Below, piece after piece: positions 51,569-64,000 of a stretch of DNA of 64,000 nt (positions within the stretch are counted from its first letter, which is position 1; every line of letters begins with the position of its first letter). The notes below the pieces were generated by a model. The model was given only the letters and a program-made list of their open reading frames with translations, was not told where the DNA came from and did not search any database. Position numbers and translations under genes: made by a program. Origin of the DNA: Phenylobacterium sp. J367 (lineage in GTDB: Bacteria > Pseudomonadota > Alphaproteobacteria > Caulobacterales > Caulobacteraceae); assembly GCF_024699985.1 (NCBI RefSeq), contig NZ_JAJONA010000002.1, forward strand, positions 1 through 64,000, in the 5' to 3' direction.

Positions 51569-52516
51569 TCAGAGCCGCGGCGCCCACTCTGCGATCTTGG
51601 CCAGGATCTCGTCGAAGTCCGGCTGACCCCGGAAATAGAGAGCGCTTGAGGCCGCATAGGCCTTCTTGAGTTTCTGGCGGACGTCGGGGTCGCTCAGGAC
51701 GAAGGCCTCGTTCTCGGCGATGACGGGGTTATCGGCCCTGGGAAACCGCTTGGCCTTGTGGTCGAGGTAGGCCTGCGTGCCGATGAACGCCTGGACGGCG
51801 GGGTCCTGGAGCAGCGAATAGACGTCGTAGTAGTGGCGCATGAAGTTGGGCGGGAACGCGCCGGTGTCCTGCTGCTGGCGGAATTTGGTCGAGATGGCCT
51901 GCAGCTTTTCGACGAGGGTGTGGCCGGGGTGGTAGCAGGCGACGCCCAGGGCGCGGTTGTCGGTGATCTCGACCCGGCTAGCGGCGTAGTCATAGGCCCA
52001 GGAACTGATGTCTCGCGCCTCGTTGGGCGCGACGTCGTCGAAGCCGACCTCCAGCAAGACCCCGTCCTTCAGGCCCTCGACCGATCCGTTGATGCTGGCA
52101 TAGGCGAGGCGGATTCCGGCGCTGCGATAGTGCCGGGTGTCATCGAACGCCGTATCGCGCTCGACCGCGGTGATTCCGTCGATGACGATGGTTTGCGCGA
52201 GGTGATCGTAGAAGTCCTTGCGGCTCTGGACGTGTGCCGGCTTGTCGTGGTTGCGGCCGGTCATCACCGGCGGGTTGGCCGGCGGTTCGATGCGGATGTC
52301 GATGTCTTCCGAGAACCGGCTGATCAGGCCGTAGCCCTTGGACAGCGAGGTGCCGCCCTTCAGCTCGAAGGTCAGGCCCAGCTGCTGCAGGCCGTAGAGG
52401 CTCTGCATGATCCAATAGTCCTTCTCGACCAGGGCCGGGGCGATGCCCTGGTCGTCGGCGACGATCCGGATCAGGTCGGCGAATTGCGGATGGTGGTGCA
52501 GGAGGTCAGGCGGCAT
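51569..52516 (-). CDS. AbiEii/AbiGii-like nucleotidyltransferase toxin (second pair)
   Basis: Intact, 315 residues. Motif I FELKGGTSLSKGYGLISRFS, motif II EDIDIRIEP and motif III-IV VEKLQAISTKFRQQQ identify the DUF1814 nucleotidyltransferase family of type IV toxins. It lies downstream of and overlaps its presumed antitoxin by eleven bases, and converges on trbB with a 16-base gap. Sequence-wise it is unlike the first AbiEii pair, so this is a separate system, not a duplication. Confidence 0.82.
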   Translation of the reverse strand: MPPDLLHHHPQFADLIRIVADDQGIAPALVEKDYWIMQSLYGLQQLGLTFELKGGTSLSKGYGLISRFSEDIDIRIEPPANPPVMTGRNHDKPAHVQSRKDFYDHLAQTIVIDGITAVERDTAFDDTRHYRSAGIRLAYASINGSVEGLKDGVLLEVGFDDVAPNEARDISSWAYDYAASRVEITDNRALGVACYHPGHTLVEKLQAISTKFRQQQDTGAFPPNFMRHYYDVYSLLQDPAVQAFIGTQAYLDHKAKRFPRADNPVIAENEAFVLSDPDVRQKLKKAYAASSALYFRGQPDFDEILAKIAEWAPRL

Positions 52517-53102
52517 CCTGCATCCCGACCTCGGCCAGAGCGCGGGCGAAGAACTTCTTGGCCCGTTCAGAACCGTAGGTCTGGGCGGCCTTCTTCACGC
52601 GGCCCCGGTCGCCGGCGGCCAAACGCGCCTTGACGCGCTCGAGCACCTCGTACGCGCTTTCCCCAAGCTGGTCGAGGTTGTTGACCAGGTCCACCAGCAG
52701 AAATTCCGGGCTGAGCTTCTTGGGGAAGGCCGGCTTCATGCGGAAGTCATAGGTGCGGCCGCCCAGGGTGAACTTGCCGTGGCGCTTATGGTTGTAGACC
52801 ACAGTCCTATTCTGCAGCTGGGTCGTGCCGACGCCGAGCATGTTGTAGGCGTTCGGCGACGCCAGCAGGAATGGGCCGCCCTTCAGGAAGGTCGACACCA
52901 GGGTGTCGTCCTCGGGCGGCGCCTTGCCGAAGGGGGTCTGCTTGGGCGCATAGTAGAGGCCGCCGGCGAGCTTGGTCAGCACGCCGGCCTGCACGGCTTC
53001 CTTGAGGTGGCGGTCGACCGCCGTCGACCACTGGGCCAAGTCCGCCCGGCGGTAGGTCTGCCCGGGACGGAGCTTGGCCTTGAACTGGTCGAACTTGCTC
53101 AT
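52506..53102 (-). CDS. DUF6088/AbiEi-like antitoxin (second pair)
   Basis: Intact, 198 residues. The N-terminal winged helix (GQTYRRADLAQWSTAVDRHL, then KLAGGLYYAP) and FLKGGPFLLASPNAYNMLG are typical of DUF6088 antitoxin-like regulators paired with AbiEii toxins. The C-terminus is basic (GDRGRVKKAAQTYGSERAKK). It precedes the nucleotidyltransferase, as in type IV systems. Confidence 0.78.
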   Translation of the reverse strand: MSKFDQFKAKLRPGQTYRRADLAQWSTAVDRHLKEAVQAGVLTKLAGGLYYAPKQTPFGKAPPEDDTLVSTFLKGGPFLLASPNAYNMLGVGTTQLQNRTVVYNHKRHGKFTLGGRTYDFRMKPAFPKKLSPEFLLVDLVNNLDQLGESAYEVLERVKARLAAGDRGRVKKAAQTYGSERAKKFFARALAEVGMQDAA

Positions 53103-53474: not shown

Positions 53475-55423
53475 ATGACTGCACCGCCGGAAACGCTTTT
53501 TCTCAGCGACCAGGAGACCGCGGTCGATCTCCTCTATTACGAGGCGGTCGCGCGGACCGTTGTGCGACTTATCCGTCAGAGCGCCAGCGTGCCCGTAACC
53601 ATCGGCGTCCACGGCGACTGGGGGGCGGGCAAGTCGAGCGTCCTGAAGATGACGGCCCAGGCCTTCGAGGGCGAGAAGCGGATCGTGACCCTGTGGTTCA
53701 ACGGCTGGGTGTTCGAGGGCTTCGAGGACGCCAAGACCGTCGTCATAGAGACGCTGGTCGCCGAATTGCGGCGGGCGCGTCCGACCTCCACCAAGGTCGC
53801 TGAAGCGGCGAAGAAGGTGTTGAAGCGGGTAGACTGGCTCAAGGTCGCCCAAAAGGCCGGCGGGCTGGCGTTTACGGCGACGACGGGTATCCCGTCGCCC
53901 GACCTCCTGAAGAGCCTCTATGACGGCCTTTCCGGATTGGTCGCCAACCCCGGGCAGATGCTCAACGCGGAGAACCTGAAAGCGGTGACCGAGCAGGCCG
54001 GCGGCCTGCTGAGGGCGGCGGAGTCGTCATCAGAGACGGTCCCGGATCAGATGCATGCCTTCCGCGAGGAATTCGATGCGCTGTTGGACGCCGCCGATAT
54101 CGATCAGCTGGTGGTGCTGATCGACGATCTCGACCGCTGCCTACCCGAAACTGCGATCTCGACGCTCGAAGCGATCCGGCTCTTCCTGTTCGTCCCGCGC
54201 ACCGCCTTCGTCATCGCCGCCGACGAGGCGATGATCGAATATTCCGTGCGCCGCCATTTCCCCGATCTACCGGCCAGTTCCGGGCCAATGACCTATGCGC
54301 GCAACTATCTCGAAAAGCTGATCCAGGTCCCGTTCCGCATTCCCGCGCTCGGCCTGGCCGAGACACGGGCTTACGTCACCTTGCTCCTGACGCAGCGCGC
54401 CCTGGGCGAGGGGGCGGCGCCGTTCCAGGCGCTGTTGGCCGCGGCGCGCGAGGACCTGCGGCGGCCGTGGGCCAGCCGTGGCCTCGACCGCAAGGCGGTC
54501 CAGACGGCGCTCTCCGGCGTCATTCCCCAGCCGGTCGAGGAGGCTTTGCGCATTAGCGCGCAAGTGACGCGGCTGCTGACCGACGGGACGCGTGGCAATC
54601 CGCGTCAGATCAAGCGCTTCCTCAATTCGATGGCGCTGCGCCGGGCGATCGCTGACGAGCGGGGCTTCGGCGAGGAGATCGAACTGCCGGTGCTCGCCAA
54701 GGTCATGCTCGCCGAGCGGTTCGCCCCCGACCTCTACGAGCAGCTCTCTCGCCTGGCGGCGACGGCTGCGAACGGCAAGGTCGCGGCGCTCGCCGTGCTT
54801 GAGGCCTCTTCCCCGGAAAGTGAAGCCGCCACCCCCTCGCGGAACGCGAAGACCAGCACGACGGCGGCGGAGCCTGAGGTTGAAGACTGGCTGAAGAGTG
54901 ATTGGGCCAAGGGCTGGGCGGCGATCGAGCCGGCGCTCGCCGACATCGACCTGCGGCCCTATGTGTTCGTGACCCGCGACAAGCGAAGCTTCTTCGCCGG
55001 CGTGATCGCCGCCGATCACCTGGAAGCCCTGGTGGAGCGTCTGAGCGGCTCTGCCATGGCCGCCCGGTCGGCCGAGGGGAGGTGGCGCGCCTGAACGATG
55101 CGGAGGCCGAACAGGTGTTCGACGCTCTGCAGTCGCGGATCCTATCGGCCGAGAAACTAACCAGCGCGCCAGCGGGCGTGCCGGGACTGGCGCTTCTCGC
55201 GCGTCTGCGCCCGCCCCTGCAGCGGCGGCTTCTCGGCTTCCTGCAGGGCCTTCCCGTCGACAGCGTCGGCGGTTGGGCGGTCACCAGCTGGGGCGGCGCG
55301 TTCGTCGAGCCCGGGATCGTCAGCGAATTCGCCAGCCTGCAGCAGACCTGGGCGACGAGCGCGACCAGCGCCGGCCTCAAAGCGGCGGCGGTGGCCTCTT
55401 CGAAACTCAAACGGGCCACCTGA
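53475..55423 (+). CDS. qatA: QatA, KAP-family P-loop ATPase of the Qat anti-phage system, one frameshift
   Basis: First gene of a complete qatABCD operon. ATG 53475 after GGTGAGC. Walker A reads GVHGDWGAGKSSVLKM, followed by the KAP hallmark VTLWFNGWVFEGFEDAKTV; Walker B is LVVLIDDLDRCLPE with ISTLEAIRLFLF, and NPRQIKRFLNSM is the C-terminal KAP block. The frame stops at 55094, but adding one G in the G-run near 55078 continues it through RLNDAEAEQVFDALQSRIL to 55423, where qatB begins. The extended product of about 650 residues is favoured; a separate 113-residue gene from GTG 55082 is the alternative. Confidence 0.82.
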
Positions 55424-56249
55424 TGGGGACCTCCAGCAGTTATGGCGGGCCTCAAATCGGGTTGATCCCCAGTTGGGTAGACGACCCCGCCACGGGCGTG
55501 GCCGCACCCGAGACGGCTCCCGTCGACCCCGCGGCGGCGTCCGGTCCGCCGCGCATCACGCCGGACCTCAGCGGCGCGGGATCGTTCCGCAGCGCCCGGA
55601 TCGCCTTCAACCAGTTTGCGCGCACGGGCAACCGAGACGCACTCGCCCGGGGCGTCTCCCGTTACGTGCGCGATGGCGTCGGCGGCAGCGGGCGGGCCGC
55701 GCGCCGGATGGGCGAAGCACGCGCGGCCGCCGGCCGGCTCCTCGGGGTCGTTCGCGACGTCGCGCGGGATGGGGCCGCCGAGGCGTTGCGGCGGGTCGAT
55801 CTGGCCGGTCTGGCCGGCCGCCCCGCCGAGGACGTGCTGCTCTCCCTCCTGGAAGTGATCTGCCCGCCGGGAGGCTCGCTCGACGAAGCGATCGCCAGAC
55901 AGGGGATGCTGGAGGCGATCGACAGCTTGGCTGAGGAAGGGCTGGGCGCTTCGATACGCTGACCGCGGGCCAGCTCGAAGAGTTCTTCCTCGATGTGGTC
56001 GCCCGCACCATCGAAGCCCGGATTCTCAACGACATCGGAATTAAGGGCGTGAGTATTCCCGACGATGTCGGGGCGATCGACAGGCTGCAGGCGCAGCTGC
56101 ACGATTTCGTCGCCGGCACAGTGCGTGGCGAACTGGCGGGCCGGCTCAGCGGTGTCGAAAGCCTAAGTGATCGCGCGGTCGTCGGCGCGGCGAACGGCAT
56201 CTACGAGGCGGCGTTCGAGATGTTGGCCATCCTGGGAGACGACGCATGA
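55423..56249 (+). CDS. qatB: QatB of the Qat anti-phage system, one frameshift
   Basis: ATG 55423 overlaps the preceding stop (TGATG). The start MGTSSSYGGP with a following proline-rich stretch is characteristic of QatB. Helical segments FRSARIAFNQFARTGNRDAL and GVSRYVRDGVGGSGRAARRM follow; a frame change near 55945 leads to LTAGQLEEFFLDVVARTIEA and ends at 56249. About 275 residues. The function of QatB is unknown. Its stop overlaps qatC (ATGA at 56246). Confidence 0.8.
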
Positions 56250-57604
56250 GACCCCACAGCGTCGTGTGCCGACTCGGCGACCGGGACCGCGCGCGGATTC
56301 CCGCCGCCGCGGGGGTTCAGCAGACGGAGATCTCTTTCATCGCGGCGGATCGCCGGCTGGATTTCGGCCTGGGCCATGCGCTCGATCAATTGGCGGCGGT
56401 GGGTCTGCGGCCCAGCGAGATCGCCGTTGACCTTGGTGTGCTGGCGGCGACCCTCACCGCCGCCGACACGCGGATCAATCGGCGCTCGGAATCGCAGGAT
56501 GGCTGGACGCGTGAGATCACCCTCGAAGTCCCTGTCTCCGACCCGGCGCTGTGGACATCGGTAGAAGACTTGGTGGTCCGCATGCTCAATTTCCTCACCG
56601 GCGACCGGTGGGGATTGCGTTTCCGCGCGCGGCCGGCGGGGCTGAAACGCCTCGCGCCGGCGCCGACCTCGGCTTGCGATGTATCGCCCGCCGGACGTCT
56701 GCCTGTTTTCGGGCGGCCTCGACAGTTTCATCGGCGCCATCGACCTGCTGGCCGGCGGCCGTGCGCCCCTGTTCGTCAGCCACTACTGGGATGGGGTAAC
56801 GAGCGCCCATCAAACCTATTGCGGCAACCGGCTGGAGAAACATTACCCCAAGGCGGGATTCATGCACCTTCGGGCGCGCGTCGGCTTCCCAACCGACGCC
56901 GTCGCCGGTTCGGGCGTCGAGAACTCGCTTCGCGGCCGCTCCTTCCTATTCTTCGCCCTCGCGGCCCTAGCCGCGGACGCGATCAAGGATGATGTGACGA
57001 TCCACGTGCCCGAGAACGGGCTCATCTCCCTGAACGTACCACTCGACCCCCTGCGGCTTGGATCCCTCAGCACCCGCACGACGCATCCCTTTTACATGGC
57101 GCGATGGAATGAGCTCCTCCGCCGGTTGGGCATCAAGGCAAACCTCAACAACCGCTACCGCCACCAGACCAAGGGCGAGATGGTCGCCGGTTGCGCCGAT
57201 CGCGCCTTCCTCGAACGCACCGCGAAGGGGACGATGTCCTGCAGCTCGCCGGCCAAGGCGCGCTGGTCCGGCGCCCCGCCGCAGCACTGTGGCCATTGCG
57301 TTCCCTGCCTGATCCGTCGCGCTGCCCTGGTCGCCGGACTGGGCACGGATAACACCACCTATACCCTGCAAGATCTGCGCGCCGCCCGCTCGACGCGGCG
57401 AAGGCGGAAGGCGAGCACGTCCGGTCGTTCCAGCTGGCGATCGCCCGGCATAGGGCGCGGCCCGGGTCCGCGCGGTTTCGTATCCATCAGCCCGGCCCGC
57501 TGAACGACGCGCCGGCTGAGCTTGGCGCCTATGAACAGGTCTATGTGAACGGCCTGAACGAAGTGGGGGCACTGCTGGCCGGGGTTGTGGCAAGGCCCCT
57601 CTGA
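56246..57604 (+). CDS. qatC: QatC, QueC-like ATPase of the Qat system, two frameshifts
   Basis: The N-terminal third (MRPHSVVCRLGDRDRARIPA) is specific to QatC; after a frame change near 56676 the QueC-like domain begins with the ATP loop LFSGGLDSFIGAIDLLAGG. Cysteines for a zinc site appear as SCSSPAKARWSG and QHCGHCVPCLIRRAALVAG. A second frame change near 57410 leads to the end at 57604. About 450 residues. QueC relatives make nitriles or modify protein termini; in Qat it probably modifies a partner. Overlaps qatD by TGATG. Confidence 0.85.
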
Positions 57605-58425
57605 TGACGATCGCGACGCCGAAGCTGATCGACCTGCATTGCCACCTCGACCTCTACCCTGATCATGAGGCCCTGATCGCCGAGTGCGACCGGGACCAGG
57701 TGGCGACCCTGGCGGTGACGACTACGCCCAAGGCGTGGCGGCGGAACGTGGAGCTCGCTAGCCGGTCCACCCACGTGCGGGTGGCCTTGGGCCTCCATCC
57801 GCAGGTGGTGGCTGAGCGCAAGTCGGAGATCGCGCTTTGGGAGCAGCTCCTGCCCGAAGCCACTTATGTCGGGGAGGTCGGCCTCGACGCCGGCCCGCGG
57901 TTCTATCGATCCTTCGACGACCAGAAGGCGGTCTTCGAGCGTGTCCTTCGCGCCAGCGCGGAAGCCGGCGGGAAGATCCTCACCGTCCACAGCGTCCGGG
58001 CGGTTGGCCAGGTGCTCGATCACCTTGAGCGGCACCTGCCGCCGGACCGGGGCAGGGTGGTCCTGCACTGGTTCACCGGCTCGAAGTCCGAAGCCCGGCG
58101 CGCGGCCGCTTTCGGTTACTACTTCTCGATCAACGCCCAGATGCTGATCCAACCGCGTCACCGCGAGATCGTGGCGGGCCTGCCGCTGGACCGCTTGCTC
58201 ACGGAGACCGATGGCCCGTTCACCCAGGCCGACGGTCGGCCCTCGCGCCCGTCCGATGTCGCCCTGATGCTGCCTGATCTCGCGCGGCTGCGCGGCGTCA
58301 CGACGGAGACCCTGCATCGCACGCTCGTGGAGAACCTGCGGGGCCTTGTGACCCCGACGATCGCAGACGTTCGGCCATCGACGGGAAGGGGAGGGGATGG
58401 CCGTATTTTCACAGATCGAGGTTGA
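57604..58425 (+). CDS. qatD: QatD, TatD-like metal-dependent nuclease of the Qat system
   Basis: Intact, 273 residues. The amidohydrolase-type metal ligands are visible: LIDLHCHLDLYPDHEALI (HxH near residue 12), GLHPQVVAERK, YVGEVGLDAGPRF (bridging glutamate), LTVHSVRA, LHWFTG and LLTETDGPFT (aspartate). This is the TatD DNase pattern. It is presumed to be the nuclease arm of Qat. Its last 29 bases overlap the start of the HEPN gene. Confidence 0.88.
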   Translation: MTIATPKLIDLHCHLDLYPDHEALIAECDRDQVATLAVTTTPKAWRRNVELASRSTHVRVALGLHPQVVAERKSEIALWEQLLPEATYVGEVGLDAGPRFYRSFDDQKAVFERVLRASAEAGGKILTVHSVRAVGQVLDHLERHLPPDRGRVVLHWFTGSKSEARRAAAFGYYFSINAQMLIQPRHREIVAGLPLDRLLTETDGPFTQADGRPSRPSDVALMLPDLARLRGVTTETLHRTLVENLRGLVTPTIADVRPSTGRGGDGRIFTDRG

Positions 58426-59197
58426 AGGGATCGCGGCCGCAATGGGGGACACGGCCATCGGCCTCAGCGGCAGCGAGATCGGTCACATCCTCAGCACCCT
58501 GAAGATGGCCGATCCCGACCCGACTGCCACGAAGCGACATCGCCTCCTTGCGGCTTTCGCGGCGGATCAGAATCGCCGCCAGAAGCGCACCGGCATCCTG
58601 GAATTCATCCGGCGCGCCATGGCGCCTGCCCGTTGGCTCGGCAAACGCGACGGCTACGAGCCCCTTCGTCTGCGACTGAACGAGGCGCTCGCGTTCATGG
58701 GCTTGGAGGTGGACGCCGCCGGAACGCTATCCACGGCCAAGGTTGCGGCGACCATATCCGAGGCGGAGAAGCGGGCGCGGGATCTCAGAGCTGATCTCCT
58801 TCGGCGAAACATCCATCCAGACGTCCTGGCCTTCTGCCGCCCGGAGTGGCTGGCCGAGAACTACTTCCACGCCGTCTTGGAGGCGGTGAAGAGCGTCGGC
58901 GACAAGCTGCGCACCCGGACGGGGTTGACGGACGATGGCGCCACCCTGGTCAATCGCGCCCTCGGCGGCGACGCGCCGATGCTGGCCATCAACGCTCGCC
59001 GCACCAAGAGCGAGCAGGACGAGCAGCGCGGCTTCGCCAATCTCGTGATCGGGACGTTCGGCATGTTCCGCAATCCGACCGCCCACGAGGCGAGGATCCG
59101 TTGGGACATGAGTCTCGAGGATGCTGAGGACCTGCTCTCGCTGGTGTCGCTGATCCATCGCCGGCTGGACGCGGCGGTAATGCCCCCGCGCCCCTGA
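58397..59197 (+). CDS. TIGR02391/Ymh-like HEPN protein appended to the Qat operon
   Basis: Intact, 266 residues; ATG 58397 lies inside the end of qatD, preceded by AGGGGAGGGG. The C-terminal domain has ENYFHAVLEAVKSVGDKLRT, LVNRALGGDAPMLAIN and FGMFRNPTAHEARIRW. RNPTAH matches the R-x4-H motif of HEPN ribonucleases. The N-terminal half is helical and unrecognised. HEPN toxins cleave RNA in abortive-infection systems; overlap with qatD suggests it is made with Qat. It is not part of the four-gene Qat system as commonly described. Confidence 0.7.
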   Translation: MAVFSQIEVEGIAAAMGDTAIGLSGSEIGHILSTLKMADPDPTATKRHRLLAAFAADQNRRQKRTGILEFIRRAMAPARWLGKRDGYEPLRLRLNEALAFMGLEVDAAGTLSTAKVAATISEAEKRARDLRADLLRRNIHPDVLAFCRPEWLAENYFHAVLEAVKSVGDKLRTRTGLTDDGATLVNRALGGDAPMLAINARRTKSEQDEQRGFANLVIGTFGMFRNPTAHEARIRWDMSLEDAEDLLSLVSLIHRRLDAAVMPPRP

Positions 59198-59358
59198 AGC
59201 CGAGGAGGGACCGCGAGTCCAAGCAAGGGCCGAGCGTTTGGGAAGCGTTTGTCTTCAACCTCGCAAAGACTGGCAGGGGCCGGCGAGATCCCTACGCCGC
59301 CCCATCGGATCTTCATTTTTGGGTGCCGCCGGCCGGCCGTTCGACGGGTTGGCAGCGT

Positions 59359-59470
59359 TGGCGCGCGACGGCGGGACTTGAACCCGCGACCTTCCTGCCC
59401 ATACATCTGGCGTGCGACCGACCAAGTGCATGTCGAAAACAGGAGCTCTATCCGGCTGAGCTACGTCGCG
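59359..59470 (-). tRNA. tRNA-Arg(UCG)-like gene with a hairpin in the anticodon loop, copy A
   Basis: Reads on the minus strand from 59470. Acceptor CGCGACG pairs with CGTCGCG; D arm GCTC/GAGC; T arm GCGGG-TTCAAGT-CCCGC. The anticodon stem TCCTGT/GCAGGA is present, but the loop holds TTTCGA, then a 33-base hairpin (CATGCACTTGG pairing with CCAGATGTATG, one mismatch), then G. Without the hairpin the loop is UUUCGAG, anticodon UCG. GCCA follows one base after the acceptor stem. 112 bases instead of about 77. Whether it is processed or charged is unknown. Confidence 0.6.
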
Positions 59471-59480
59471 ATCTCTTGGA

Positions 59481-59503
59481 GGGGAGGGTGTCCGGCCCTC
59501 CCC
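59481..59503. terminator. Hairpin between the two tRNA-like genes
   Basis: GGGGAGGG pairs perfectly with CCCTCCCC over a 7-base loop. It separates the two tRNA-like genes and may be a processing signal or terminator; there is no T-run. Confidence 0.45.
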
Positions 59504-59517
59504 ATCGACTGTGAATT

Positions 59518-59627
59518 TGGCTCGCGGCGGCGGGACTCGAACCCGCGACCTCCCTGCCCATGACCTGGCGTGCGACCGACCAGTGCATGTCGAAAACAGG
59601 GGCTCTATCCAACTGAGCTACGCCGCG
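59518..59627 (-). tRNA. tRNA-Arg(UCG)-like gene with a hairpin in the anticodon loop, copy B
   Basis: Reads on the minus strand from 59627, eight bases after the stop of the HTH gene. Acceptor CGCGGCG/CGCCGCG, D arm GCTC/GAGC, T arm GCGGG-TTCGAGT-CCCGC. The anticodon stem CCCTGT/GCAGGG encloses TTTCGA, a 31-base hairpin (CATGCACTGG with CCAGGTCATG) and G. Compared with copy A, the acceptor, the anticodon stem and the hairpin all differ by compensating changes, and the 11-base hairpin loop TCGGTCGCACG is identical. 110 bases long. The base pair T(-1)-A(73) would give an 8-bp acceptor before GCCA. Confidence 0.62.
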
Positions 59628-59635
59628 ATGGGGGG

Positions 59636-60127
59636 TTACTCCGACTTGACCAGCTTGAGCTTGGGCTTCGGCGCGCCCTTGCGGGTGGCCTTGATCCTGG
59701 CGATCTCCACCTTCTCGGCGATCTCGGCGATCTTCTCTTCGGCGAACGGCCGAGCCGCCTCGATCAGACCCTCCAGGTGGTAGATGTTGGTCTTGCTGCC
59801 GGTGCTGGTTTCGCGCCGCTCTTCACGGCGGATGTAGCCAGCCCCTTCCATCTTGGCGATCCGCCGTTGGATGGTGCGGGGGTCGACGTCCATCGCCAGG
59901 GCGATCGTGCCCTTCGAGGGGTGCGGCTTGCCTTCCGCCTTCCACCACTTCGACGCAAGGTGAAGGATGATGTTCACATCGATGGCGTCGAGGCCGAGCT
60001 GCTTCTGGTTCTCGATGATGACGCTGGGGAAGACGGTCCAACCGGCGTCCATCAGCGGCTTCGACCATTTCTTCTCGTTCGTGCGCAACTCCGCCTCGGC
60101 GGACTTGCCTTCTTCTTTTGCGCTCAT
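59636..60127 (-). CDS. Winged-helix (MarR/Rep-like) DNA-binding protein upstream of the tRNA-like genes
   Basis: Intact, 163 residues from ATG 60127. The N-terminal part WSKPLMDAGWTVFPSVIIEN and LDAIDVNIILHLASKWWK leads into a winged helix PSKGTIALAMDVDPRTIQRR with KMEGAGYIRREERRETSTGS. A lysine-rich coiled C-terminus follows (EKIAEIAEKVEIARIKATRK). Such proteins occur in plasmid and phage accessory regions as regulators or replication factors. The two tRNA-like genes start eight bases after its stop on the same strand, so it is probably co-transcribed with them. Confidence 0.7.
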   Translation of the reverse strand: MSAKEEGKSAEAELRTNEKKWSKPLMDAGWTVFPSVIIENQKQLGLDAIDVNIILHLASKWWKAEGKPHPSKGTIALAMDVDPRTIQRRIAKMEGAGYIRREERRETSTGSKTNIYHLEGLIEAARPFAEEKIAEIAEKVEIARIKATRKGAPKPKLKLVKSE

Positions 60128-60492
60128 GGCGGCGGCTCCGATCTGTTGAAACCGATATGAGGCGCCGACGGCCCCGCCGCAACTTTGAGGGGGGAGGCAC
60201 GTGGGTCACCCCCCACCATGGGTCTATGAATGGTACGCGGGGAATGCGGGATGCCGGAATACAGTTTGGCCGGACGTCCTGATTCTGTAGGGTGCCCGGG
60301 TCCACCCACTGGGAGACACTAAGGTCGCCGCCTGGGAGACACACCTGCCCCCCTAGGGAGGCCCGTGTGTCCGGCGGAGGGGCCAAGAAAAATGACCGAC
60401 ACCCGGTTTTACTCCGCTCAGGGCGGCAATCCTAGCCCAACTCTTCGGCCTGGCCCCAGACATCTCTCTGGAACTTGTCGCCAACGGCGAGA
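60128..60492. promoter_or_regulatory. Intergenic region with direct repeats upstream of the HTH gene
   Basis: CTGGGAGACAC occurs at 60309-60319 and 60332-60342, 23 bases apart, about 180-215 bases upstream of the HTH start. Two-turn spacing suggests binding sites, possibly for the HTH protein. No gene is seen in these 365 bases. Confidence 0.5.
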
Positions 60493-61714
60493 CTAGCCAT
60501 CCAGGGGCGGCCCATTCCAGACCGACCTGGGGAATTGACCGCGTTCCAGCGCCATATCGAAAAGGTCGTGCAGGGCGTTCAGAAATCTCGCCGGCGTCCG
60601 CAGGTTCTGCGACACCACATGCAGACCGGGGTAGTCGATCAGCATGATCGGCAGCTGCAGTTCGTCGACCATGGCGAGAACCGGTTCGCTGTTGGCGACC
60701 TGGTCGTGGTCGAACATCTCGCGGACCACGATCAGCCCGAGCAGCTGGCGTCCGGCTAACGGAACGCCGATCGGCTCTGGTCGGCCGGCGATGACGACGC
60801 CGTCGGTCTCCCTGGGCATAGACCAAGGCCCGCTTCAGCTGCTTGGTCGCCTTTTTGATCTGGTTTTGGATCGTCAACCGCTTGCGATCCATCGTTCGGC
60901 CGAGCGACACGGCGGTGTTGGGGCTGTCTTTTGCCTCGATGAACAGCATCACCTTGTTGGTGGCGACCATCACATCACTGAGTTCCTTGCCGGTGTCAGC
61001 TCTGAAGGGGTTGAGGTAGATGCTCTCGGCCGGGAAAACTCGACCGAGCATCATGGCGATATCCCGCTCCTGGGGCGGACCAGGATCCTCCCGGACGAGC
61101 TCTGAGATCGCAGGGTGTTGGTGTGCATCCCGGAAGGCGTAGGCCTCTGGCCTGGTGTCATAGAGCACCAGGTCATCGGGATAGAGCCGCTCGCCGAGCG
61201 TCAGCGTGAAGGCCGCCTGGTCGTCAGCGTCGTCCCGAATGGCGAACCGCTGGGCCAGCCTTTCCGCCAGGGCGCCATAGGTCTCCAGGTCGAACGGCCC
61301 GAACGCTGCGGCGGCGACCTCGCGTTGAAACCGACCGGCCGCCGTGTTGCAGACCCGCACACCCATCAGCTCTCGGTCGTGTTCGTCGAAGAAGTAGACG
61401 TCGAATTCGGCTTGGCCCAGCGCAGCCGTGACGTCCGCCAACAGCTCGTCGCCATCGAAGAGGGCGGTGACCACGGTGAGAGGCTCGTCATGGTCGTCGA
61501 AAGACGCGGTCACGATCCCCAGATGGCGGTCCGTCTGATCCGGATCGCTGAACAGATAGACTTTCAGTTCGCCGCGGAGTCGCGCGGCCAGGATCGCTTC
61601 CTTGGTCACCTTGAGGACCAAAGCGACGGAGCCGTCCGGCCACTTCACCGGCATCACGCCGTACCGAAGCTGGCGCAGGTCGGGCAGAAGATTAGGGTGG
61701 TCGGTCGATAACAT
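60493..61714 (-). CDS. PD-(D/E)XK-like nuclease of a restriction-modification-like operon, one frameshift
   Basis: From ATG 61714 about 230 residues of a strand-rich N-terminal region (ARLRGELKVYLFSDPDQTDR) precede FPAESIYLNPFRADTGKELS and DVMVATNKVMLFIEAKDSPN, where D...E-A-K fits a PD-(D/E)XK catalytic core, and NQIKKATKQLKRALVYAQG. A frame change near 60820 leads to a C-terminal region ending at 60493. About 407 residues. Family not recognised. It is the last gene of a minus-strand operon behind a GIY-YIG nuclease and a cytosine methylase, so a defence role is inferred. Confidence 0.6.
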
Positions 61715-61765
61715 GTTTCCACCCCCGGCGCAGACGGCCGCCAGGGCGGCGAGACCCGACGTGCC

Positions 61766-62492
61766 TTAGACCTCTTCGCCTTCGGCTTCCTCAGCCACCG
61801 ACGCAGCTCCGCCCAGGGCCTCGTAGCGCCTGGCGGAAAGCCATTGCAGGCGTTTGGCCTGTGTCAGCAGAACCCGCCGCAAACCGCCCTGGACCTTTCG
61901 TTCAGAAATCACCTGGGCAAGTCGAGAAATGATCAGCGCGCGTCGGGCGATGCGAAAATCGGGATGAGAGCGAAGCTCGAAGACGCGCTCGGAGACGATG
62001 CGGCCTCGAAACGAAGGCGGCGCCTGGACCGCGAGGGGCGCCAGGCGGCGGGTCCTTCTCGTTGAGGATAGCCTTGAACTGTGATCCCTCGACCGCGCGT
62101 TCGGTGATCAGCCGCTCCAGCGCGTCTAGGTGCTGGCGGGCGGCCTGGTCGGCGCGGTTCGAGTCCTGGAACTGGGGGAGGGGCCAAACTTCGATCTCGA
62201 ACACCTCGAAGGGGTCGAGCACCGACATGGCTACGGCGTCGGTCCGTTGGTTGGTCAGATGGCGGCGGATGCGAGTCCGCAGCCGTTCGTTGGTTTGGCC
62301 GACGTAGATCGGCTCGCCGTCATAGTCGAAGAAGGCGTAGACGCCCCAACGGTAGTTGCCGACGAATGGCTGAGCGCCGGACGGATCGTCGAACGGCGTA
62401 TCGAGGAATGTCGTCAGGTTCGTCCGCAGATCCTCGGTCTCGAACGGCGGAAAGTTGACCGCATCGGGGTCGCGTTGGGACAAGTCGGTCAC
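61766..62492 (-). CDS. GIY-YIG nuclease next to a DNA methylase, one frameshift
   Basis: ATG 62492 overlaps the methylase stop (ATGA). The catalytic fold begins WGVYAFFDYDGEPIYVGQTN with ERLRTRIRRHL, containing the two tyrosines and the arginine of GIY-YIG enzymes; the glutamate is probably in HLDALERLITERAVEG. A frame change near 62055 leads into an arginine-rich helix region and a stop at 61766. About 242 residues. GIY-YIG restriction enzymes (Eco29kI type) pair with cytosine methylases, so this is the likely endonuclease. Confidence 0.68.
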
Positions 62493-63630
62493 GCGACCTC
62501 GCGTGCCTCGCGCGCCTCGGCCAGCAGCGGTTCGAACACATGCTTCGCCAGGTGGCGCACGACGTCGACGACGACGCCGTCGCCGGTCAGGTGGTAGGCC
62601 TCGTTGTAGTTCTTGGGCAGCTTGTAGTCGTCGGGCAGGCCCATCAGCCGGGCCGTCTCGCGCGTTGAGATCAGGCGCGAGCGGATCTTCTTGCCGTCGA
62701 TGACCAGAATGACCTGCCGGCTGGACCCGCCGGCCGGAGTCCGCAGGCAGCCGGACACATCGTCGAACCTTACCTCGGCCCGCTGCACCTTCGCGCCACG
62801 CTCATCAAGGCGGGTTCGGTTGTAGACGCCGCCGACCATGCGGCGGCCCGCGCGCACGGCGGCGGCGACCTTGGCTCGGTTCACCGGAGACATCTTTGCC
62901 AACAGGCGGTCGGTCTCGGCTGGCGTGTGCCAAGCGACGCTCGTCGGATTTTCCTCGATCTCGTCGGCGAAGGTCCGAACCCGGTGAACCGGCGTCGGAA
63001 CGTTCCACCAGAGCATTCCGCCTCGTAGCGCCGTCGGAAGCGCTTCGACGGCGCTGCGCAGGCCACGGGTATGGAAGGGGTCCAGCGGCTCGGGCGACAA
63101 CAGCGCCGGGTCGATCGGCACATCGGCGCGCACGCCGATGACAAACAACCGCGGCCGCGACTGAGGAACGAACAGGTCCGCGTTGATCACCAGGGCGCCG
63201 CAGCGGTAGCCCGCCTGGGCGAACGTCCGGCAGATCGCCTCGAAATCCTTGCCGCCGTGTGAGGTCAGCGTCCCGCACACATTCTCCAGGGCGATCAGCT
63301 TCGGCGCCCGGCCTTCGGCCTTGAGCGCCCGGACCACGTCCCAGAAGGGGTAGAAGGTGCCTGACCGCTCCCCTTCAGCCCGGCGCCGATACCGGCAAGC
63401 GACAGGTCTTGGCACGGGAACGAGCCCCACATCAGGTCGGCGACGCCGGGCAGATCGGCGGGGGTGACCTCGCGGATGTCAGCTACCTTCAGCTCGTCCG
63501 AGCCGAAATTGGCCTGGTAGGTGAGGCCCTTCTTGAAGTCGAAGTCGTTGGCGAAAAGGCAGGTCCACTCGGGGCCCAGGCCCTTTCGCGCCATGCCGCC
63601 GCCAGCGAAAAATTCATAGAACTCAGACAT
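62489..63630 (-). CDS. dcm: DNA cytosine-5 methyltransferase, one frameshift
   Basis: ATG 63630 gives MSEFYEFFAGGGMARKGLG (motif I). Motif IV is WGSFPCQDLSLAGIG with the catalytic PCQ; one G is missing from a G-run near 63380, after which motif VI reads LIALENVCGTL and motif VIII VPQSRPRLFVIGV. The target-recognition region includes YNRTRLDERGAK, and motifs IX-X end LMGLPDDYKLP and LTGDGVVVDVVRHLAKH. About 380 residues. It protects host DNA from the linked nuclease. Confidence 0.9.
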
Positions 63631-63838
63631 GGGCGCGGCGCTCAACGTCTTGGAGTAGGGCGCCCTTGCCATCGCGGGCCAGTTTTTCCTCGATCGCTTC
63701 AGCGATCCAGGTGTTGCGGGAGATGTTGCCTGGCCGGCCCGCGCAGGCCGCGTCAATCGCGGTGAACGTCTCGCCGGCCAGGCGCAGATTGATGCGGTCC
63801 AGACTGCGGACCGTCGCGGTTTTCGAATCGGAATTCAT
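63623..63838 (-). CDS. Ribbon-helix-helix regulator of the restriction-modification-like operon
   Basis: Intact, 71 residues from ATG 63838. It has RSLDRINLRLAGETFTAIDA, then ISRNTWIAEAIEEKLARDG, a typical ribbon-helix-helix pattern. Its stop overlaps the methylase start by eight bases. A perfect inverted repeat lies ten bases upstream of its start, so autoregulation is likely; it may play the part of the C protein that delays nuclease expression after transfer. Confidence 0.72.
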   Translation of the reverse strand: MNSDSKTATVRSLDRINLRLAGETFTAIDAACAGRPGNISRNTWIAEAIEEKLARDGKGALLQDVERRAHV

Positions 63839-63847
63839 GGAGCCAGG

Positions 63848-63868
63848 GTGGCGCCTGCGTGGCGCCAC
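63848..63868. promoter_or_regulatory. Operator-like inverted repeat before the RHH gene
   Basis: GTGGCGCC at 63848-63855 pairs perfectly with GGCGCCAC at 63861-63868 around TGCGT. It lies between two divergent starts (63838 on minus, about 63920 on plus) and is the likely binding site of the RHH protein. Confidence 0.55.
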
Positions 63869-63919
63869 GTCGAGCAATGTTTCTCGTTTTGTTCGCGGCG
63901 CGTGATATGCTCTATCGCG

Positions 63920-64000
63920 ATGGCCGGAGAGCTGACTCGCCAGTCGCAAGTTCTTGAACGAGACGCGCGTCAGACAATAAATGAAGGCCGAGGAATACCT
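63920..64000 (+). CDS. Start of a gene cut by the right edge
   Basis: ATG 63920 opens a frame (AGELTRQSQVLERDARQTIN) that stays open to the end. GATATGCTCTAT just before could be its -10 region. Too short to identify; divergent from the RHH gene. An alternative start is ATG 63980. Confidence 0.3.
   Translation, partial: MAGELTRQSQVLERDARQTINEGRGIP

Follow-up and report, generated by a model that had tools for sequence, protein, structure and literature searches.

A conserved family of tRNA-Arg-like RNAs with a hairpin in the anticodon loop on plasmids and other contigs of Proteobacteria

Short introns at position 37/38 of archaeal and eukaryal tRNA genes leave an anticodon loop of seven bases when they are removed. 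Group I introns also interrupt the anticodon loop of tRNA genes in bacteria, where, according to the accessible part of PMC8450103, they are mostly longer than 200 nt. It is further known that tRNA genes occur on bacterial plasmids (PMC5374385, PMC13386836); the accessible parts of these two sources do not mention a hairpin in the anticodon loop. Here we describe tRNA-Arg-like RNAs that share with the archaeal and eukaryal introns the position, the shortness and the seven-base loop left behind, and with the group I introns the interruption of the anticodon loop. With ordinary bacterial tRNA-Arg they share a D-arm with A20, the bases C35 and G/U36, a T-arm and often an encoded CCA. Among the titles and abstracts listed by searches of the open literature, a scope outside which preprints and most subscription papers fall, none describes such hairpin-bearing RNAs, which apparently constitute an undescribed, conserved class of tRNA-like RNA.

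The window, by which we mean the whole stretch of 64,000 nt analysed, is the start of a 144-kb contig of Phenylobacterium sp. J367 that is probably a plasmid, since it carries a gene for a conjugation coupling protein. Two tRNA-like genes are located in it, flanked by a winged-helix gene on one side and by an anti-phage island (AbiE, Qat, PD-Lambda-3_B) on the other, as follows.

51569-53102, minus strand: AbiEi/AbiEii (PADLOC)
53475..58425, plus strand: Qat defence system, genes QatA, QatB, QatC and QatD (PADLOC)
58397..59197, plus strand: PD-Lambda-3_B / Hypoth_Ymh protein, convergent neighbour of the tRNA-like pair (Pfam, PADLOC)
59363..59470, minus strand: tRNA-Arg-like RNA gene, copy 2, 108 nt including the hairpin (Rfam RF00005, 48.0 bits)
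59400..59432, minus strand: hairpin of copy 2, 33 nt, inserted after A37 (sequence; parse and fold)
59434..59436, minus strand: UCG triplet of copy 2, anticodon position (sequence; parse)
59522..59627, minus strand: tRNA-Arg-like RNA gene, copy 1, 106 nt including the hairpin (Rfam RF00005, 49.5 bits; unconstrained fold)
59559..59589, minus strand: hairpin of copy 1, 31 nt, inserted after A37 (sequence; parse and fold)
59591..59593, minus strand: UCG triplet of copy 1, anticodon position (sequence; parse)
59636..60127, minus strand: 163-aa winged-helix protein, DnaD N-terminal / phage O-like (Pfam; homologues; PDB DnaD and PHROG matches)

An earlier note on this DNA had placed two tandem tRNA-like genes here on the minus strand, and both indeed pass the gathering score of 29 bits of the Rfam tRNA model RF00005 (49.5 bits at 59627-59522 and 48.0 bits at 59470-59363), with a spacing of 51 nt between them. 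ARAGORN reported neither copy without its intron option; with this option it found both, labelled as tRNA-Glu(UUC) in a frame shifted by one base from that of the note. Each copy has the four tRNA stems, and A37 is followed by the hairpin (31 or 33 nt), G38 and the rest of the anticodon stem. As the note had stated, deleting the hairpin in silico leaves the loop UUUCGAG in both copies; the open seven-base loop that it envisaged did not hold for copy 1, whose unconstrained minimum-energy fold is a cloverleaf with the anticodon stem prolonged by U31-G39 and U32-G38, followed by a 5-nt bulge, UUCGA, and by the hairpin stacked on top. ViennaRNA gives the two hairpins 10 and 12 pairs, which corrects the arms of 11 and 10 pairs proposed before. 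The changes on both sides of stems noticed earlier were found again: G5-C68 in one copy is A5-U68 in the other, and C-G at the foot of the anticodon stem is U-A. The tandem copies also have a weak Rfam match to YrlA, a Y RNA-like RNA with a tRNA-like module and hence a similar fold; with 35.1 bits, below the gathering score of 69, this match is best explained by the arms of tandem tRNAs. The pair with its anticodon-loop hairpin is a real observation, and chance can be excluded as the origin of its design because homologues exist.

The same design, with a hairpin of varying sequence, is kept in at least 28 parsed members from 26 loci on plasmids, genome contigs and one viral contig, which together cover Alpha-, Beta- and Gammaproteobacteria. 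When 72,556 plasmid records were searched with blastn, six of the ten records matched by the pair carried it, with Caulobacter, Acidisoma, Xanthobacter, Spongiibacter, Methylocaldum and Paraburkholderia terrae as hosts. A search with the upstream protein added two further, divergent members, one in Bradyrhizobium elkanii and one in Paraburkholderia ginsengisoli, as well as members in two genomes of the genus of the window. A DNA pattern that included a CKA rule matched at least 113 stretches of genome contigs and 56 of viral contigs. Because 61 of the 80 titled genome-contig matches, among the matches listed, are archaeal, bacterial members are undercounted. By eye, at least 12 bacterial loci were picked from these matches, one of which the protein search had already yielded, along with one viral contig; bacterial and viral matches that contained different insertions or two adjacent tRNAs joined were set aside. 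A pattern with no rule on the anticodon found matches in 4 of 385 genomes at the level of the class, 5 of 398 at that of the phylum and 3 of 295 in one family, with some genomes recurring, and two of its matches (G865 and G935) were rejected as chance matches at ordinary tRNAs. A looser pattern matched 39 of 329 genomes, by eye all chance joins except three places already known. In a blastn search of a phage collection, which returned 22 records, the 20 best match no more than 19 percent of the query and are mostly T-arm matches to ordinary tRNAs. A later plasmid search added a member from Rhizobium sp. CB3060 (L284), which is counted only in the set of 29 unconstrained folds; its insert has only 19 nt, and those of the 28 parsed members have 24-37 nt.

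Two parses underlie the base counts given below. The first was built on the assumption of one base 3' of the insert, with a reward for NCNA and G38; the second, neutral parse gave no reward for CKA or G38. The search imposed CKA on 12 of the 28 members; the other 16, including the two of the window, were found without this rule and have CKA too. At two loci reached beside the winged-helix gene (L012 and L017) the insertion does not agree with the parse, and both were excluded from the counts. By eye, three inserts (L012, L140 and L213) have GAAATC in common on their 5' side and GAGAGTA on their 3' side, which we take to resemble a loop E (bulged-G) motif at the base of the hairpin. Another short type of insertion, distinct from the hairpin described here, was seen by eye in phage tRNA genes on seven IMG/VR contigs (L157, L166, L168, L175, L196, L197 and L199), some with several such genes per cluster; its approximately 40-45 nt, which include a small hairpin and a common ACAGCAA-like motif, seem to be placed in the 5' strand of the anticodon stem, and those scanned with Rfam score as plain tRNA.

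Arginyl-tRNA synthetase (ArgRS) reads the bases A20, C35 and G/U36, an identity set that the members of the family share. A20 is present in 28 of 28, compared with all five Arg entries and none of the 29 other entries among the host's ordinary tRNAs, a control that comprises 30 of 42 matches and may contain duplicates. C35 and G/U36 are likewise constant in all 28 and base 34 varies; for 12 members this was a condition of the search, and the first parse favoured it, but the neutral one upheld it, with CKA following the stem within 8 nt in all 28. Of the triplets that precede A37, 12 are UCG, eight UCU, three GCU, two GCG, two ACG and one CCU, so that 25 of 28 are of the Arg type. Together with A20, these triplets indicate that the family is derived from tRNA-Arg, the origin that the earlier note had assigned to the pair. 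An encoded CCA lies within 5 nt of nucleotide 72 in 24 of 28 members. Unlike ordinary tRNA-Arg, all 28 have the seven-base anticodon loop interrupted by the hairpin, most have G38 where the five Arg entries of the host have A38, and U33, which is required for decoding, is not always kept: it is present in 23 and lost in five, each of which has a purine at position 34. Bases 32 and 38 can form a standard pair in 26 of the 28 members (U-G in 22), against 14 of the 34 host entries (U-G in one). The neutral parse found at least two standard pairs past the five-pair stem in 26 of 28 members and, in 23, GG immediately preceding the 3' arm.

Several comparisons argue that the pairing of the hairpin is maintained. 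In an alignment of 11 members, two-sided changes occur in every helix but the D stem, which is invariant, and 95.1 percent of the cells are paired (85.4 percent for the hairpin base alone) versus 36.5 to 58.4 percent with slid partners; it should be noted that the structure was drawn on one of the 11 sequences, which favours the paired count. For the four pairs of the hairpin base in all 28 members, 90 of 112 cells are standard pairs, compared with a shuffled mean of 60.8 and with 13 to 63 percent paired when partners are slid (80 percent observed), and none of 10,000 shuffles was as high. With three near-duplicates removed, 78 of 100 cells are paired, a value never reached by shuffles, whose mean was 51.2. 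The shuffles of both sets do not preserve relatedness. The first pair of the hairpin base is C-G in 19 members and G-C in five, and the inserts fold better than their shuffled copies (mean z -2.26, with 25 of 28 below -1). Unconstrained folding of 29 full-length RNAs gave the stem, the hairpin and an unpaired NCKA in 21; the remaining eight folds are without the full design. Judged by these alignments and folds, the pairing of the hairpin is under selection, as had been proposed from the two copies; homologues without conserved base pairs in the hairpin had been named as the finding that would speak against it, and the opposite was found.

The 28-member parse, which assumes one base 3' of the insert, also agrees with the earlier placement of the hairpin at position 37/38, a site that raises the question of whether it is an intron. 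A group I intron, dismissed by the earlier note as well, does not fit: the inserts of 19-37 nt are too short in comparison with the length of mostly over 200 nt given in the accessible part of PMC8450103, and one Rfam scan of window positions 54000-64000 gave no group I match. An archaeal-type intron was ruled out by the scan for its splicing signal and by searches for the enzymes. Unlike the archaeal and eukaryal introns, the family has no full bulge-helix-bulge (0 of 28 members versus 28 of 61 archaeal matches of the same scan under one rule), and the central helix of this motif is found in one of 28 members versus 43 of 61 archaeal matches. The splicing endonuclease (PF01974) was absent from all nine host genomes, two of which are just 83 and 86 percent complete; in a control, the same search found it in exactly the four archaea among 14 genomes. 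RtcB (PF01139), the ligase searched for, was found in one of the nine.

It could still be that the hairpin is a true short tRNA intron, which a novel bacterial enzyme pair cuts out before joining the halves into an ordinary tRNA-Arg(UCG/UCU). The position 37/38, the seven-base loop left by removal, U33 in 23 of 28 members, the Arg-type triplet and the encoded CCA are what such a tRNA would have, and the first three also count against retention of the hairpin. Against this possibility stand the near absence of the splicing motif from the 28 members and of the enzymes from the nine host genomes, as well as G38 and the U32-G38 wobble, which are foreign to the five Arg entries of the host. Moreover, the GCU of three members would misread Ser codons, and the use of Arg codons on the plasmid is close to that of the chromosome (for CGA, a share of 0.092 in 29 open reading frames of the plasmid versus 0.087 in 69 of the chromosome). 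The near equality of these shares also leaves the idea that the genes supply a rare tRNA to plasmid genes unsupported. We consider removal as an intron unlikely. The evidence favours a hairpin that is retained rather than spliced out, because the prolonged stem with G38 belongs to the hairpin form, because the host genomes examined yielded no splicing enzyme save for the single RtcB, and because U33 is not always kept.

The genomic surroundings offer another way of looking at these genes. The stop codon of the winged-helix gene ends 8 nt before copy 1, and a gene of this kind (approximately 165 residues), whose product matches DnaD (PDB) and phage replication-initiation O-like families, is located directly upstream of the tRNA-like gene in 17 of 28 loci, or in 12 of 23 if one sets aside the window and those loci to which that gene had led. 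The two genes are separated by -2 to 12 nt at 16 of these 17 loci and by 59 nt at the other (L140). Such tight linkage would be expected of a cis-acting element, in which the tRNA fold stands at the 3' end of the winged-helix transcript and RNase P sets the end of the mRNA, or binding of ArgRS controls that gene or the next one. However, members are also found after a DndB-like gene (L209), after an XRE-type gene (L077) and next to DUF1489, and at least 13 winged-helix homologues whose downstream sequence was inspected (12 of the 14 printed, and further ones) are not followed by a tRNA-like gene. A cis-acting role is therefore quite improbable in our estimation, and the winged-helix gene was rejected as a required partner, since it occurs without the tRNA-like gene and the DUF1489-adjacent copies occur without it. 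At three of the homologues that have no tRNA-like gene (L014, L015 and L021), a different G+C-rich, hairpin-like stretch was seen by eye to follow in the position that the tRNA-like gene takes elsewhere. RefSeq locus tags skip a number at the position of the tRNA in eight of nine annotated plasmids (the exception is Spongiibacter), which suggests that automatic annotation seemingly already lists an RNA gene there.

The DUF1489 gene adjoins the tRNA-like gene at four loci (L074, L100, L136 and L214), in three of which a ribonucleotide reductase gene lies downstream (checked with Pfam for L214). A tRNA T-arm was absent from 29 of 30 DUF1489 loci fetched from one family (30 of 60 matches), and a genome outside these 30 (G965) has a member. 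Judged by the loci fetched from this family, a vertically inherited chromosomal gene was rejected. Sporadic occurrence of this kind, with one of the 30 fetched loci occupied, would suit tRNA genes that are decaying or parked, such as remnants of the sites at which islands integrated, and tRNA genes are common attachment sites. What speaks against decay is that the acceptor, anticodon and T stems and the hairpin base change in a paired manner, that every member has A20 and that the CCA is kept in 24 of 28, and because of this covariation we regard the explanation as very improbable.

Defence genes are often found next to the tRNA-like genes. The earlier note had pointed to such a neighbourhood, which the AbiE, Qat and PD-Lambda-3_B matches in the window bear out, and confident PADLOC matches lie beside nine of the 15 loci submitted; a tenth has a weaker helicase match and five have none. 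They include Gabija with AbiTii, Hachiman, restriction enzymes, a TIR protein and DpdB/DndB-like proteins. Three control stretches of 11 kb, from three of the plasmids, are annotated without defence genes. Enrichment is suggested and unproved, because 15 of the 28 loci were sampled, the neighbours were picked by hand, some for their defence-like look, and the control stretches are few.

Taken together, the interpretation given in the earlier note is partly supported, and the roles it suggested as decoy, bait or tRNA activated by cleavage stay conjectural. We see about an even chance that these are mostly RNAs of mobile elements that derive from tRNA-Arg, keep the 19-37 nt hairpin after A37 in the working RNA, and act as mimics that are recognised by ArgRS and do not decode. 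Such an RNA would be cut from its transcript like any tRNA and would then receive its CCA end. With the hairpin in place it may be bound, and perhaps charged, by ArgRS, as the conservation of A20, C35 and G/U36 leads us to infer, and it would be expected to decode poorly because its anticodon is held in a bulge inside a long rod. The most likely use of an Arg-tRNA mimic would be to occupy proteins that recognise tRNA-Arg, for instance ArgRS or colicin D-type anticodon nucleases. Colicin D cuts tRNA-Arg at the 38/39 bond, which should be hard to cut here since it lies inside a duplex. This bond, the defence-rich surroundings and the varying base 34 are the grounds for thinking that the RNAs perhaps serve as bait for anticodon nucleases, which is the weakest step of the proposal. 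The fuller version, in which mobile, non-decoding tRNA-Arg mimics with the anticodon in a bulge are uncuttable baits or sensors for tRNA-Arg-specific nucleases and spread within defence islands alongside a DnaD/O-like winged-helix gene, is put forward tentatively, and we are inclined to doubt it.

In summary, the plasmids and other contigs examined here would encode a conserved class of interrupted bacterial tRNA that is neither of the group I nor of the archaeal type. It would represent either a tRNA mimic that retains its hairpin or evidence for a novel way of removing short inserts from tRNA. If the view of these RNAs as bait is true, the conflict of plasmids, phages and hosts over the cleavage of tRNA would gain a further layer made of RNA.
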